Below are positions 40,612-49,969 of a DNA stretch of 64,000 bases, one piece after another. A model generated the notes under the pieces. It saw only the letters and a list, made by a program, of their open reading frames with translations. It was not told the origin of the DNA and did not search any database. Both the position numbers and the translations under genes were made by a program. Position 1 is the first letter of the stretch. Every line of letters starts with the position of its first letter. Source of the stretch: Myxococcales bacterium (GTDB taxonomy: Bacteria; Myxococcota_A; UBA9160; UBA4427); assembly GCA_022563535.1 (NCBI GenBank), contig JADFNE010000012.1, positions 1 to 64,000 on the forward strand, read 5' to 3'.

Positions 40612-41552
40612 GCTCACTTCGGTGTTTATTTGCATTGGTCTTCGCATTGTCCTTCGCGATGTCGATGGTCCCTGCGTGCGAAACCCTCGGCAACCCGGTC
40701 GGAACCCCGGGATGCCCGACGTTTCTCGCTGGAGTAGAACAGGGCCGCATCGCCTCGAATCAAATCAGAGAAGCCTCGGGAATTGCCGCGAGCCATCGCA
40801 ATCCCGGGGTCTACTACCTGCACAACGATTCTGGAGATAGCGCGCGAATCTTTGCGATCGACGAGCGCGGAAAAGATCTGGGCACCTACCACCTGAAGGG
40901 CGCAGTGGCCTTAGATTGGGAAGACATCGCAGTCGGACCGGCGCAGGGATTGCCGGGGACCTTCATCTATGTCGCGGATATGGGCGACAACGATCATCGG
41001 AGAAAGTGGGTCGTGGTCTACCGCGTGCCCGAACCTGAGATTTTTAGCGGCCGGGCGGGCACCCAGATCGTCCTGCCCGGAGTCGTCGCACTCCGCATGC
41101 AGTATCCGGACGGAGTCGCGCACAACGCCGAAGCGCTGCTGATCGACCCCCAGACTGCAGATCTCTACATCGTGACCAAGGAAAGGAGGAAGCCCGCAAC
41201 GGTATTTCGCTACGCGGCACCCCATCGCCCCGATGAACTCGTGATGCTCGAAGAGGTGGCTTCGCTGCGGCTCGGCTCCCCACTACTACCGGCAAGCGAG
41301 ATCGTGACCGGAGGAGATATTTCGGTTGGCCGGAACCAGATACTGCTGAGAACGTACGCGCTGGTGTACTTGTGGCAGCGCAAAGCCGGACAATCGATCG
41401 CCCAGGCGATCTCGCAGACACCGTGCATGGCGCGACAGCGCCGCGAACCACAAGGAGAGGCGATTGCCTGGAGGCTCGATGGATCGGGCTACGTCACGGT
41501 CAGCGAAAAATCCCATCAACCGATCTACCTGTTTGCGCGACCCCCGTTCTAA
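40608..41552 (+). CDS. secreted propeller-like protein of unknown function
   Basis: 314 residues with a signal peptide or lipoprotein signal (VPAC at about 21-24). The motif series SGIAASHRNPGVYYLHNDSG, RIFAIDERGKDLG, LDWEDIAVGP, FIYVADMGDNDHRRK and the closing GEAIAWRLDGSGYVTVSE matches a widespread hypothetical family with short repeated strands, probably a beta-propeller. The conserved Asp and Trp-Glu-Asp residues could bind metal or be structural. It is coupled to the acyltransferase gene upstream. No function is assigned. Confidence 0.85.
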   Translation: MSSLRCLFALVFALSFAMSMVPACETLGNPVGTPGCPTFLAGVEQGRIASNQIREASGIAASHRNPGVYYLHNDSGDSARIFAIDERGKDLGTYHLKGAVALDWEDIAVGPAQGLPGTFIYVADMGDNDHRRKWVVVYRVPEPEIFSGRAGTQIVLPGVVALRMQYPDGVAHNAEALLIDPQTADLYIVTKERRKPATVFRYAAPHRPDELVMLEEVASLRLGSPLLPASEIVTGGDISVGRNQILLRTYALVYLWQRKAGQSIAQAISQTPCMARQRREPQGEAIAWRLDGSGYVTVSEKSHQPIYLFARPPF

Positions 41553-41634
41553 CCCCGCCCCTCGAGCGCTCGGAAATCTCCATGGTTTTCTCGAAAATGG
41601 AAATGTCCGAAAACGGCTAGTCATCTACGGCGGT

Positions 41635-41656
41635 CCATGGTTTCATGAAACCATGG
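41635..41656. promoter_or_regulatory. 22-base perfect palindrome at ada/alkA start
   Basis: The half-site CCATGGTTTCA is followed directly by its exact complement, making an uninterrupted 22-base palindrome. It contains the ATG (41653) of the Ada/AlkA gene. A partly matching copy (TCCATGGTTT, then a diverged right half) lies 55 bases upstream at about 41579-41600. A dimeric regulator binding here would block both promoter escape and translation initiation. Candidates are the Ada-type AraC domain of the protein itself or another repressor; this is inference. Confidence 0.6.
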
Positions 41657-43197
41657 AGCTGGACCACGACACTTGCTACCGGGCACTTCGCACCCGCGAT
41701 TCGCGCTTTGACGGGCGCTTCTTCATTGGCGTGCGCACCACCGGGATCTACTGTCGGCCGATCTGTCCGGCCCGCACCCCCAAGCAATGCAACGTCGATT
41801 TCTTTGCCTGCGCGGCCGCTGCCGAAGACGCTGGTTTTCGCCCCTGTCGCCGCTGCCGCCCCGAGACTTCGCCGGGAACACCCGCCTGGCTTGGTACGTC
41901 CACCACCGTAACCCGGGCCCTGCGGTTGATTGCCGACGGGGCACTCGACCAGGGCGGTGAGATCGACCGATTGGCTGATCGCCTCGGTGTTACGGCGCGG
42001 CATCTGCGGCGACTGTTCGACGAACATCTCGGCGCCTCTCCCGTAGCGATCGCCCAGGCACGCCGAGTTCACTTTGCAAAGACACTGCTCGACAGCACCG
42101 CAATGTCGATCACCGATATCGCTTTTTCCAGCGGCTTTGCGAGTGTTCGCCGTTTCAACGCTGTATTCGCCAAGACCTTTGCGCGTTCGCCCCGGGAGGT
42201 TCGCGAAAATCGAGCGACGAAATCCCTGGCCACGGCGACCCATGGACTCGAATTGCGGCTTTCGTACCGGGACCCATTCGACTATCAAGCGCTGCTGGCC
42301 TTTCTCGCCGATCGGGCGATTCCGGGTGTCGAATCAGTCTCCGAGGGTCACTACCAACGTACCGTCTCGCTCGATACAGACCGGGGCGTAATCGATATCA
42401 GTTGCAATCTCGTAGCGAAGCATCTGATCTTGCGAGTGCCGCCGGAACTTTCGGGACATGCGATGACGATCGCCGAGCGAGTCCGTCGATTGTTCGATCT
42501 GTCGGCAGATTCCAGGGTGATCGAAGCACAACTCAGCGCAGACCCACTGCTTCGCGACATCGTAAAGCGTTTCCCCGGCACCCGCGTGCCGGGAGCATGG
42601 GATGCCTTTGAGCTTTCGGTGCGCGCGATCCTCGGACAGCAGGTGAGCGTAAAGGGTGCAACGACCCTTTCGGGACGCCTGGCGGAGGCATACGGCACCC
42701 GGCTCGATACGGGAGAAGATTGCGGCTGGCTCCATCCGGGTCCCGAACAGCTGGTGCACGCCAGGGGCGAAAGAATCGGTCTTACCCGAGCGCGTTCCGC
42801 GGCGCTTCGCGCGCTCTCCCGGGCGGTCATCGACGGGCAAGTATTTTTTGACGGAGCCGGGGGGCTCGACGCTGCGGTCGCGAAGCTGCTCGAGGTGCAG
42901 GGCATCGGTCCGTGGACAGCACAGTATATCGCCATGCGGGGTTGCGCAGAGCCGGACGCATTTCCGTCCGGCGATCTCGTTCTGCGACGAGTCGCAGAGC
43001 AGCTCGCTCCCGAACTCAACAGCGAAACCAAGCTTCTCGAACACTCGGAGGCATGGCGTCCCTGGCGCGCCTACGCGGCCATGTTCTTGTGGCGGGCTCA
43101 CGTTCCCAAGCTGAAGACGACGCTGAACAAACGGCCAGAAAAAGGGCAAACCAAACAACAGCAACCCCGAACGCGACAGCAGAGGATCCGATCATGA
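41653..43197 (+). CDS. Ada N-terminal/AraC regulator fused to AlkA DNA glycosylase
   Basis: 514 residues. An N-terminal Ada methyl-phosphotriester zinc domain has Cys34, Cys38, Cys65 and Cys68 (GIYCRPICPART, FRPCRRCRPE). An AraC-type HTH domain spans about 84-185 (ITDIAFSSGFASVRRFNAVF). The C-terminal AlkA glycosylase has the helix-hairpin-helix VQGIGPWTAQYIAM followed by the catalytic Asp in DAFPSGDLVL. The fusion senses methyl damage by transfer to Cys34 and excises alkylated bases. The C-terminal tail is basic and Gln-rich (TKQQQPRTRQQR). The stop overlaps the ogt ATG by four bases, giving a two-gene alkylation-repair operon preceded by a palindrome. Confidence 0.95.
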   Translation: MELDHDTCYRALRTRDSRFDGRFFIGVRTTGIYCRPICPARTPKQCNVDFFACAAAAEDAGFRPCRRCRPETSPGTPAWLGTSTTVTRALRLIADGALDQGGEIDRLADRLGVTARHLRRLFDEHLGASPVAIAQARRVHFAKTLLDSTAMSITDIAFSSGFASVRRFNAVFAKTFARSPREVRENRATKSLATATHGLELRLSYRDPFDYQALLAFLADRAIPGVESVSEGHYQRTVSLDTDRGVIDISCNLVAKHLILRVPPELSGHAMTIAERVRRLFDLSADSRVIEAQLSADPLLRDIVKRFPGTRVPGAWDAFELSVRAILGQQVSVKGATTLSGRLAEAYGTRLDTGEDCGWLHPGPEQLVHARGERIGLTRARSAALRALSRAVIDGQVFFDGAGGLDAAVAKLLEVQGIGPWTAQYIAMRGCAEPDAFPSGDLVLRRVAEQLAPELNSETKLLEHSEAWRPWRAYAAMFLWRAHVPKLKTTLNKRPEKGQTKQQQPRTRQQRIRS

Positions 43198-43676
43198 CCA
43201 TTGAATACACGTACATCGACAGCCCGGCCGGGCAGGTATGGGTCGCGTGGTGTCGCGACGGTTTGGTTTCCGTCGACTTCGTCGACCCACTGGAGGACGC
43301 GCAGCTCGATCCCGATTGGGAGTACAACGCAGACCTGCGCTGCGACGCGGTCGATCAACTGAACGCGTACTTTGCGGGCACTCTGCGCGAATTCGATCTG
43401 CCGCTGGTCTTGCACGGAACCGACTTTCAGAAACGCGTCTGGCGAGAACTCGCAAAGATTCGCTACGGCGAAACAACGACGTATGGCGCGATCGCCGGGC
43501 AACTCGGCAAGCCAACCGCTTCGCGGGCGGTCGGAGCGGCCAACGGGCAGAACCCCATTTCGATCGTGCTGCCGTGTCACCGCGTGATCGGCAAGAACGG
43601 CAAGCTCACCGGCTACTCCGGGGGGATCGACAAGAAAGAAAAACTCTTGCGCTTCGAGCGCGACTGCCTGAGTTGA
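43194..43676 (+). CDS. ogt: methylated-DNA-protein-cysteine methyltransferase
   Basis: 160 residues. The active site IVLPCHRVIG carries the acceptor Cys128, preceded by the HTH region TYGAIAGQLGKPTASRAVG and the Asn hinge AANGQNP. It removes methyl groups from O6-methylguanine in a suicide reaction. The N-terminal half is the short Ogt-type domain. It overlaps the ada/alkA gene by four bases, so both are made together. Confidence 0.96.
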   Translation: MTIEYTYIDSPAGQVWVAWCRDGLVSVDFVDPLEDAQLDPDWEYNADLRCDAVDQLNAYFAGTLREFDLPLVLHGTDFQKRVWRELAKIRYGETTTYGAIAGQLGKPTASRAVGAANGQNPISIVLPCHRVIGKNGKLTGYSGGIDKKEKLLRFERDCLS

Positions 43677-43728: not shown

Positions 43729-45153
43729 CTAACGGCGTTCGACCGGAATTTTCAAAATGACTTTCGATCTTCCCGAGATTGCTACATCGATCTCGAGTTC
43801 ACCGCCGTGGAGATCCGCGACTGATCTGGAGACCCCCAGATCCAATCCTTTCGCGCCGCGTCGAGTCCCAGAGGAAGACTCGATTGGCCGCGTTCGCGAC
43901 TCGTCGCCAATTTTTGGACCGTGATCAGAGACGCTGAAGCAGATCTGTTCGGATTCCTCGTCCAGATCAGCGGTCAGCAAGAGCGTGCCTCCATCCGGCA
44001 TCTCTTCTACCGCGTTCTTTAGCAGTTCGTCCAGCGCGCACCCCAGAAGATTGGGGTCGGCCTCGAACTCGAAATCTTCGAGGTTGGGAGAAACCGTCAC
44101 CTCGACGTCACCCCCTAACTGCGCGGCAATTGGGAGAATCCTGTGTACGGCGGGCGCGAGAATCGACTTTGCCTTCAGACTCTCGAACACCGGTCGCTCG
44201 CTCTTCGTAAGCTCCAGCATCTTGTCGATGCTCTCACCGATTCGAGTTGCCAGTCCCGAGATTTCCTCGAACGCATCCGCCCGGACTGTCCCGGGCCCTT
44301 GAACTTCTGGATTGTTCACGATCTCGAGGATGTTGCTGAGCGGGTTCACGATCGCGCGAGCAATTGCACTCGCAACCTCCTCCGCATTTGGAGATTCATC
44401 TGCACCCTGGAAGCGACTTCGCAGTGACCTCAACTCATGCCGACGGGCGTCTTCACCTAGAACAATCTGCGTGACGTCGACGTAGTGCTCTACGCGCCCC
44501 CCTGCAAAAGGGCCGGCGTTGATGGGCTGGCTCCAGTGCTCGAGCCAGCGCTCCTCCCGCCCTTCCCCGGGCAGGACGTGGCATCGGAAATGTTCGATGT
44601 AAGTGTTGTTTTCGTAGGTAGCGAGGACACGCTCTTCGAAGTGGAGCGGGTCTTCGAGGTGATTGCGAATCAATTCGCGAATCAACTTTCGCTTGTCGCG
44701 GCCGATGACGTTCGCTCGGTCTATTCCGAAGTAGCGCTCCATCGCCCGACTGATCCACACGACCTTGAAATCGACATCGAGCAGGAAGATCCCCACTGCA
44801 GAATTTTCCAGCAGGTCGTCGGCGCCGCCTTGAAACGCCACTTTCACCGGGTGGGACTGGTGCACGTTGTCGCCGGAGCTGTCGATGCGGTGACTCAGCT
44901 CCTCGAGATCGGCGGGCAGCCTACTGGGCTGGGTCTCTTCCGAAGTGCGGATACTCCAATACTTGCGACCTTCACGGGTCTCGGCTCGCAAGCCTGGAAA
45001 GCGGTCGCGCAATGCGCCGATCATTCTTTCCGCGGTTCGCCGGCTCACTTCGAAGTTCTCGGAAATATCGTCCATCGTCAGACCGACCAGTGTGGTCTGG
45101 AGCAGATCTTTGAGCTCTAGAATGTCGGTTGCGCGTTGGTAGCGCTCACTCAT
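43729..45153 (-). CDS. HTH-PAS-histidine-kinase-like fusion lacking the H-box histidine
   Basis: 474 residues, soluble. An N-terminal winged HTH of DeoR/WYL style (TMDDISENFEVSRRTAERMIGALRDRF, about 25-53) is followed by a PAS domain (about 112-232, with VGIFLLDVDFKVVWIS) and a kinase-like region. At the H-box the sequence is ASAIARAIVNPLSN, with Arg266 where kinases have His. The ATPase boxes are kept: ELLKNAVEEMPDGG (N), DHGPKIG (G1), RGAKGLDLGVS (G2). DNA-binding plus ATPase but no phospho-acceptor suggests a ligand- or ATP-responsive transcription factor. ATG 45153. It lies downstream of the Gfo/Idh/MocA gene, and 181 bases before its start hold no gene. Confidence 0.85.
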   Translation of the reverse strand: MSERYQRATDILELKDLLQTTLVGLTMDDISENFEVSRRTAERMIGALRDRFPGLRAETREGRKYWSIRTSEETQPSRLPADLEELSHRIDSSGDNVHQSHPVKVAFQGGADDLLENSAVGIFLLDVDFKVVWISRAMERYFGIDRANVIGRDKRKLIRELIRNHLEDPLHFEERVLATYENNTYIEHFRCHVLPGEGREERWLEHWSQPINAGPFAGGRVEHYVDVTQIVLGEDARRHELRSLRSRFQGADESPNAEEVASAIARAIVNPLSNILEIVNNPEVQGPGTVRADAFEEISGLATRIGESIDKMLELTKSERPVFESLKAKSILAPAVHRILPIAAQLGGDVEVTVSPNLEDFEFEADPNLLGCALDELLKNAVEEMPDGGTLLLTADLDEESEQICFSVSDHGPKIGDESRTRPIESSSGTRRGAKGLDLGVSRSVADLHGGELEIDVAISGRSKVILKIPVERR

Positions 45154-45334
45154 GGCTTCACCATTTCGGAGAGACGAGGCGGTCAGTAGGATCGGATCCG
45201 GAGTTTATACATAATTTGGAGGTGAAAACATCCGTTCAGCCGAAGCAGAATCGACTCAGATACCGCGCATTCGAAACAAGAAGAGCAACTAAGCGTGCTG
45301 TTTTCAAGTTCTTGATGTCGATGCTGAGGGGCCG

Positions 45335-46558: not shown

Positions 46559-47254
46559 TCAGGTCGCGTATTGATCGAACAGATAATTCACGATGTCCTG
46601 TGACTCGAACATTTCGGTCCCCGTGTTCGGATCTCTGAGCCACGGCACCATCATCTTCCCCGAGCGCTCTGTGAAGCTCGCACGCGACGGGCTTCCCCTG
46701 GCCACGTTGCGCAGCAGGTACGGAATTTCGAGGGTGCAGAGCGCCTCCCGTACCAGGCGGGAAAACGGAGAGGCTTCGTAGCTTGCGAGTTCGAGGGGCT
46801 CGTGGGGTTCGCGCGACGGCGTGACCCGCGAGCCGGCGGTCCCCCGCGACAAGCCGGAGATAATGGAGGAGATGTCGGTCAACGGGCCCAGCCCCAACAT
46901 CAAGGGGACGCTTCCGTCTCCGTACTGGCTGAACAGGTATCGCACGATGTCGCTGGATTCATACATCTCGACTCCGGTGTTGGGATCGACGAGATAGGGG
47001 AACAGCGCCTTGCCACCTCGCTTGATCAGCGCCGGACGGAACCGCTCACCACCCTTTGGACATGGCAAGATCCGCACTTCTAGATCGAGAATGCTCAGCG
47101 CTTCGCGCACCTTGCGGCAGAACGGACAAGCCTCGAACTCGTAGAGCTCCAGTTGCTTTTCCGGGCGCGCGCCCAGCTTCCCCACCGCGCCGCCACTTCC
47201 AAGACGGCCAATGGAAATGAGCACCGATGTGGTCACGTCGAGTGTTCGATTCAC
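46559..47254 (-). CDS. tandem GST N-terminal (glutaredoxin-like) domain protein
   Basis: 231 residues made of two copies of a thioredoxin-fold GST-N domain. Copy one (about 35-115) has the redox motif ACPFCRKVREAL (Cys43, Cys46) and PNTGVEMYESSDIVRYLF. Copy two (about 153-230) has ASPFSRLVREAL, with both cysteines replaced by Ser162 and Ser165, and PNTGTEMFESQDIVNYLF. No GST C-terminal helical domain is present. It starts at GTG 47254 with AGGGAG six bases upstream, 38 bases after the LLM oxidoreductase gene, so the two probably form an operon. It may bind glutathione or reduce disulfides; the duplication suggests one active and one structural copy. Confidence 0.9.
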   Translation of the reverse strand: MNRTLDVTTSVLISIGRLGSGGAVGKLGARPEKQLELYEFEACPFCRKVREALSILDLEVRILPCPKGGERFRPALIKRGGKALFPYLVDPNTGVEMYESSDIVRYLFSQYGDGSVPLMLGLGPLTDISSIISGLSRGTAGSRVTPSREPHEPLELASYEASPFSRLVREALCTLEIPYLLRNVARGSPSRASFTERSGKMMVPWLRDPNTGTEMFESQDIVNYLFDQYAT

Positions 47255-47292
47255 TTGGTTCTCCCTGTGAAGATCTGGACGACTCAACGGGT

Positions 47293-48385: not shown

Positions 48386-49969
48386 TCAGCTTTCGAAAGA
48401 ATTGTCCGGGAGAGGAACGATCTCGGCGTTCGGGCCGAGTTGCTCACGGGTACTGAGAATTTGCTCCACGCCGGGCATCGGACGGCAGGTGACGAGGAAC
48501 TGAAATGCGAAGGCGCCGGGCCAGATTCTCGCCAGCAGCCCCGTCACACTTTGTAGGAAGCGACCCAATTTCCCACCGATCACGGATTCCCAGGGAATTG
48601 CAACGGGGTCGATGCTTTCGATCGCATAGCCACAATCGCGCAGGGTACGGCGCAGGGATACCCGGTTGAACAAGCGTCGGTGCTGGATGTCGAGAATCCC
48701 GCGATCGGTGTAGTTGAAGCGCCCGAAGAGCAGACCGATTCGATTCGAGATGAATGCCACATTGGGCGTGATGACGATCATCAGGGGTGGCTTCTTTCCG
48801 GGACGAAGCGCGCGACTGCAGTTGCGCAGATCGAGCAACAACTGCTCTGGGTTTGGCAGCTCTTCGATTACGTCGAGCAGCAATACCACGTCCGCGTCCA
48901 GCGCATCGAACGGGAGAGGGTGGTTGAGGTCGGCCTTCTCGAAGCGGTCGACGGATCCGACCTCGGGTTCACTGAGATCTACACCTGTGACCTCGATTCC
49001 CTTTTCCCGGCAAGCGCGCGCGACAATGCCCGACCCGCAACCGAGATCGACGATCCGTGCGGGCGCTTCACGCTCGATGACCGCGAGGGCACTGGTGTGG
49101 GCGGTATCCATCCCGTAGACCTCGTAGTGACCGGATCCCTTTTCGAGATCGCGGAACTTGAGCGAACACAGCATGCCCAGGCGATGCAAGCGATAGCGAA
49201 TCGTCTCCCGCAGCACGTCCTTGCCGTACTGCACTCCATCTACATTGCAGTCCTCTTCACCGTAGTGGGTCGGGATGTCGAACTCTTCGATGTGCGCGCC
49301 AATGTTGGCAGCCTGCAGGAGCATCTCGGTATCGAAGTGATATTCGTTTGTGTTGACTTCAAAAGGAACGCGTCGCAAGAATGCAGAGGAGTAGGCGCGA
49401 TAACCGGTGTGATACTCGGAGAGGTCGAGGCCGGTCAAGTAGTTCTGAAACGAAGTCAGCCCCATGTTGGCGATGATCTTGTAGAGCGGCATGCCACCCG
49501 CGCGCGCACCAGCGATGTTGCCCATCCGGGTACCGAGCACGACGGCGGCTCCGGTGCGCTCCCAGATGTCGATGAACTTGGGAAGCATCTCGGGGGCGTA
49601 CTGCGCGTCGCCGTGAAGCAGAATGGTGAATTCGAAACCCGCTTCCAGCGCGTAGCGATAGCCGAGTTTCTGATTGCCACCGTATCGCTGGTTGACCGGG
49701 TTGCGGGCCACGGACACGTTGCCGATTTTCCGGACTTCGATCCAGCGCTGCAGGACTTCAGCGGTGGCGTCGCCCCCAGCGTCGTCTATCACGAGAAACT
49801 GGATGCGATCATTGTTGAACAACTCCTCGGGAATACGTTCGAAGAGCCCTTCGATGAGCCGTTCGTGCTGGTAGGCGACGACAAAAATCAAGACTTTCGA
49901 AGAACGCCGATCCAGGGCTTCGGCTTCGGTCTGTTCGAGATCTTGGTCTTGCATCAGGAGGCCACTCAC
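48386..49969 (-). CDS. GT2 glycosyltransferase / SAM methyltransferase fusion
   Basis: 527 residues. The N-terminal family-2 glycosyltransferase (about 25-250) has the nucleotide-sugar fold start VLIFVVAYQHERLIEG, LVIDDAGGDAT and the DxD-like ILLHGDAQYAPEML. The C-terminal class I methyltransferase (about 295-480) has IVDLGCGSGIVARAC, TGVDLS and the late block VVLLLDVIEEL. No membrane segment of the dolichyl-phosphate type is present, although a hydrophobic stretch near 475-500 (WPGAFAFQFLVTC) may sit at the membrane. It probably adds a sugar to a lipid or polymer intermediate and methylates it. It is paralogous to the gene at 58473-59972. The start is GTG. Confidence 0.9.
   Translation of the reverse strand: MSGLLMQDQDLEQTEAEALDRRSSKVLIFVVAYQHERLIEGLFERIPEELFNNDRIQFLVIDDAGGDATAEVLQRWIEVRKIGNVSVARNPVNQRYGGNQKLGYRYALEAGFEFTILLHGDAQYAPEMLPKFIDIWERTGAAVVLGTRMGNIAGARAGGMPLYKIIANMGLTSFQNYLTGLDLSEYHTGYRAYSSAFLRRVPFEVNTNEYHFDTEMLLQAANIGAHIEEFDIPTHYGEEDCNVDGVQYGKDVLRETIRYRLHRLGMLCSLKFRDLEKGSGHYEVYGMDTAHTSALAVIEREAPARIVDLGCGSGIVARACREKGIEVTGVDLSEPEVGSVDRFEKADLNHPLPFDALDADVVLLLDVIEELPNPEQLLLDLRNCSRALRPGKKPPLMIVITPNVAFISNRIGLLFGRFNYTDRGILDIQHRRLFNRVSLRRTLRDCGYAIESIDPVAIPWESVIGGKLGRFLQSVTGLLARIWPGAFAFQFLVTCRPMPGVEQILSTREQLGPNAEIVPLPDNSFES

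Follow-up and report, generated by a model that had tools for sequence, protein, structure and literature searches.

In the hybrid two-component systems (HTCS) of Bacteroides, a C-terminal AraC HTH is under the control of a working kinase and receiver. FG214 of Fimbriimonas ginsengisoli is an HTH-PAS one-component regulator whose haem-bound PAS governs both dimerisation and binding to DNA (PMC13060918). Caulobacter DivL is a pseudokinase of PAS-DHp-CA arrangement that senses DivK~P; taken alone it shows no autokinase activity, not even in the Y550H variant, and it binds TNP-ATP weakly, at 57 uM (PMC4211667). The regulators of the DriD type, carrying a winged HTH (wHTH) and WYL and WCX domains, serve DNA damage responses.

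The gene described here brings parts of these kinds together in one chain. Within the window, which is the whole 64,000-nucleotide stretch analysed from a Myxococcales contig, positions 43729..45153 of the minus strand (the strand of all features of the gene given below) hold a single unbroken ORF of 474 codons with its ATG at 45153. The translation, Pfam and predicted structures give the order wHTH, connecting helix, PAS and pseudo-histidine-kinase core, so that the fusion of winged HTH, PAS and histidine-kinase ATPase core proposed in an earlier note on this DNA was indeed found. Pfam recognised HATPase_c at residues 366-472 (E 3e-12) and PAS at residues 114-163 (E 1e-7), with a weak, sub-threshold HTH_11 match at residues 7-50; an input domain and a DNA-binding domain thus share one chain. 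The full-length model reached a pLDDT of about 95 in the wHTH and about 96 in the PAS, falling to near 26 past residue 420, where the CA part was unusable and a separate model of the core was employed. We favour, with moderate confidence, a DNA-binding regulator of the one-component kind, gated by its PAS and carrying a vestigial pseudo-kinase.

The winged HTH (residues 1-69; 44947..45153) is of the type found in DriD/WYL regulators. When a profile built from six wHTH sequences was searched against the PDB, only DriD-type WYL regulators (8tp8, 9pfq) were returned at E 1e-13, the next match standing at E 0.05, and the same wHTH retrieved two same-order proteins that Pfam annotates as WYL plus WCX (L058) or WCX (L059). 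Pfam matched no WYL domain in the 474-aa protein itself. As the same wHTH heads these WYL/WCX proteins, it can be regarded as the head of a WYL regulator, with a PAS and a kinase core standing in for the sensor part. SRRTAERM, in the recognition-helix region, is invariant in all four family members; L098, a WYL protein of the host genome, showed no significant wHTH similarity to the 474-aa protein. A long helix (residues 79-116; 44806..44919), predicted by DSSP of the model with low confidence at residues 92-104, connects the wHTH to the PAS.

The PAS (residues 112-229; 44467..44820) belongs to a conserved subtype that recurs in sensor proteins from many phyla (loci L016-L041), with 42-63% identity to the present PAS, its carriers including archaea, Chloroflexota, Bacteroidota, Thermodesulfobacteriota and others. 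Across phyla the stretch REERWLEHWS-P-I..G...GGR.E is near-invariant, and the signature REERWLEHWSQPI..G..AGGR.EHY.D.T is complete in the 474-aa protein. The subtype is probably ligand-sensing. A PAS profile searched against the PDB gave weak partial matches only (DosP, ThkA and RpfR), with no close solved structure, and the records searched named no ligand for the subtype. A DNA-binding version of this cross-phylum PAS would offer a convenient handle for finding its ligand.

In the AlphaFold2 model of the core, a DHp-like helical hairpin (residues 257-317; 44203..44385; helices 28-50 and 63-88 of that model) carries Arg266 (codon CGC, 44356..44358) at the acceptor position. The best PDB sequence match of the protein is DivL, followed by ZraS, whose acceptor His lies opposite R266 in a gap-free alignment. 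Among 21 kinase cores related to residues 230-474, mostly from the host genome and its relatives, 20 have His in the R266 column and the remaining one, L067 of genome G085, has Asp; N270 and P271, just after R266, are retained. The homologue alignment and ZraS hence bear out the substitution of Arg266 for the H-box His claimed earlier. An objection set out beforehand, that a nearby His might take its place, does not apply to this protein, since the modelled helices 257-317 contain neither His nor Tyr; there is thus no Tyr as in DivL and no obvious alternative acceptor of either kind. The R266 codon is a single transition away from a His codon and was read from a single draft genome, so that a base error at this codon alone is possible; the pseudo-kinase conclusion is independent of such an error because four further losses (K414, S427, A434 and D438) accompany it. 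The sequence makes it most likely that the protein is not a two-component kinase and would switch genes directly, with no phosphate passed on. Separately, the Asp-bearing L067 (the same gene as in L048; 1357-2217) is a short kinase-like protein with intact G boxes and a HATPase_c match of 85 bits, another candidate pseudo-kinase of the same class.

The surroundings of the gene agree with the earlier claim that it does not encode a two-component kinase, in that, of the genome's 123 receiver-domain matches, none falls on the contig and no cognate response regulator stands next door. A Gfo/Idh/MocA oxidoreductase gene of the same strand lies 181 bp upstream, followed by a GST-N protein gene and one for a luciferase-like monooxygenase. 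In the intervening stretch (45154..45334, 181 bp, no strand assigned), searches for palindromes, shared upstream motifs and sigma-70-type sites gave no candidate operator or promoter. Further along the window, 46559-47287 encodes a protein with two tandem GST_N/glutaredoxin-like stretches and 48386-49969 a fusion of a family 2 glycosyltransferase with a methyltransferase domain. Downstream of and convergent to the 474-aa gene, 41464-43676 encodes an Ada-AlkA fusion and then an Ogt-type methyltransferase. This Ada-AlkA/Ogt neighbourhood is not conserved, and because the neighbours in the relatives L061 and L062 differ from those of the 474-aa gene, no functional link to it is claimed.

Although catalysis appears lost, the kinase fold is kept by prediction. 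The core model (mean pLDDT 79, pTM 0.71) retains the DHp hairpin and the CA sandwich (lid pLDDT under 50) and superimposes on histidine-kinase cores with Z about 19-20: VIA-align gave Z 19.8 (rmsd 2.3, 134 aligned) against the ThkA CA domain and Z 19.1 (rmsd 5.2, 189 aligned) against DivL, which was also the top Foldseek match (4q20, E 3e-12). This likeness to a known sensor of DivK~P, in a genome with so many receiver domains, raises the alternative that the dead core binds a (phosphorylated) response regulator and relays its state to the HTH without phosphotransfer. We consider this unlikely: R553 of DivL, needed for DivK binding, corresponds to V269 here when counted from the acceptor position, no receiver gene is nearby, and conservation within the family is lowest in the core, which in one member (L043) has no H box at all. 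Slightly less probable again is a mixed arrangement in which the dead core would read response-regulator state jointly with a PAS ligand, the logic of DivL fused to a DNA-binding domain.

The family is small. The wHTH-PAS order was detected in four of 30 genomes of the taxonomic family (the host and three others), and three further genomes of the genus lacked it; with the best 7-8 candidates per genome scored, nothing beyond these four members emerged from 377 genomes of the phylum, nor any instance from 345 genomes of another phylum, and the 23 genomes carrying the PAS subtype likewise held no wHTH fusion. The only other relative readable to its end, L043 (genome G007, 440 aa), lacks, besides the H box, any Pfam-recognised ATPase domain, and its N box is broken; L046 runs into the end of its contig. 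L045, shortened and carrying a frameshift, keeps in another frame a G2-like end and a His-bearing H-box-like stretch (VVHSVHNLLASL), the sole one in the family, which suggests from sequence that the ancestral kinase core had the acceptor His. In genome G028 the family seems to be decaying, the homologue being frameshifted and shortened (L062:4635-5562) and a stop-bearing HTH fragment of 69 aa lying on a second contig (L060).

Identity of the 474-aa protein to its family falls from 46-57% in the wHTH to 23-48% in the PAS and 19% in the core (the last to L043); towards L043 and L046 the wHTH is 54-57% identical and the other parts 19-33%. For L043/L046, the one comparable pair, NG86 dN/dS was about 0.11 in the wHTH, 0.56 in the PAS and 0.46 after the PAS, values that are rough with dS near 1, so that the wHTH is the most constrained part. 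These gradients of identity and constraint mark DNA binding as the best-preserved role, and it looks as if the kinase core were decaying across the family. As the PAS is less constrained than the HTH, with its signature eroded in L043 and L046, the input may not come from PAS sensing throughout the family. A bleaker reading, about as improbable as the mixed arrangement, is that the whole gene is a lineage-specific fusion losing its function domain by domain and open by chance. Its sparse distribution, the frameshift of L045, the stop-bearing HTH fragment of L060 in the same genome and a core that degenerates differently from member to member would all suit such decay; however, the ORF is intact over 474 aa with nothing missing from its PAS and HTH signatures, and purifying selection acts on the wHTH of the L043/L046 pair.

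The ATP site tells a similar story of partial loss within the degenerate CA (Bergerat/HATPase) fold (residues 349-472; 43738..44109), assigned from the HATPase_c match and VIA-align. The N-box Asn380 (44014..44016), an Asn in all 21 aligned kinases, is kept. In the G1 box SDHGPKI (residues 409-415; 43909..43929) D410 and G412 are kept and the second Gly, invariant in 21 of 21, is replaced by K414. The F box is lost, IESSSGTR (residues 424-431; 43861..43884, in the low-confidence lid of the model) having S427 for a Phe that is likewise invariant in all 21. The G2 box AKGLDL (residues 434-439; 43837..43854) retains one of its three glycines, G436, with A434 in place of a Gly found in 19 of the 21 and D438 in place of one found in every kinase aligned. 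Only the N box is therefore intact of the full N/G1/F/G2 set, and of the three boxes earlier thought functional the N box stands while G1 and G2 do not.

That the core nonetheless binds ATP without hydrolysis or phosphotransfer, nucleotide occupancy setting the DNA-binding state, is improbable, although N380, D410, G412 and G436 remain and the Bergerat fold is predicted confidently outside the lid. Against it stand the loss of the second G1 Gly, the F-box Phe and two G2 Gly, and the example of DivL, glycine-rich in G1 and G2 by its PDB sequence and already a weak TNP-ATP binder (PMC4211667), by analogy with which nucleotide binding by the degenerate core looks doubtful. With G1, F and G2 degenerate here and no Pfam-recognised ATPase domain in L043, the earlier suggestion of ATP binding as the switch finds no support. 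A part in live phosphotransfer, as the partner of an active kinase in a heterodimer or through another acceptor residue, is very improbable: the predicted kinase fold is kept, which speaks for it, but the acceptor His is gone, the DHp helices lack His and Tyr, and the ATP-lid motifs are lost.

A one-component regulator, as had been claimed, remains the most plausible reading, in our view a PAS-gated one, with wHTH and PAS on one chain and the acceptor His absent. In this scheme the DriD/WYL-type winged HTH would bind DNA, the PAS of the conserved, probably ligand-sensing subtype would supply the signal, and the catalytically dead histidine-kinase core would serve as a dimerising stalk at most. 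Ligand binding by the PAS would alter both the dimer and the long helix between wHTH and PAS, and through them how far apart the two HTH units stand or how exposed they are. What we infer for the 474-aa protein is that it dimerises, that it binds DNA and a ligand, and which way the switch would work. Counting against the scheme, the searches brought up no operator or target gene, and the neighbouring genes are not shared among family members. Should the scheme hold, the family could show a two-component system caught in the course of becoming a one-component system, in which a two-component sensor (PAS and kinase core) was captured by a WYL-type DNA-binding head and its catalysis is being lost.

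The protein is a rare domain combination assembled from known parts and restricted to one lineage (four genomes of a single taxonomic family). A literature search retrieved no paper joining WYL, PAS and histidine kinase; the earlier suggestion of an undescribed class accordingly holds, within the searches made here, for the order WYL-type HTH, PAS and pseudo-kinase, and fails for HTH-PAS, which FG214 already represents.

Set against the known systems, the 474-aa protein, like the HTCS of Bacteroides, unites a sensor, a kinase core and a DNA-binding domain in a single polypeptide, and differs from them in having neither acceptor His nor receiver and in carrying its HTH at the N-terminus. With DivL (4q20; PMC4211667) it shares a PAS followed by a DHp-CA core without the acceptor His; DivL, however, has Tyr at the acceptor site and no HTH, whereas the present protein has R266 and more degenerate ATP-lid motifs. 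FG214 resembles it in joining an N-terminal HTH and then a PAS in one protein, with dimerisation and DNA binding controlled by a PAS ligand as proposed here; it differs in its LuxR-type HTH, its haem-bound PAS and its lack of a kinase core. Finally, the DriD/WYL regulators (8tp8, 9pfq; PMC6789036, PMC12340889) have the same type of winged HTH, with the RRTAERM stretch in common, and where they carry WYL and WCX the 474-aa protein carries a PAS and a pseudo-kinase.
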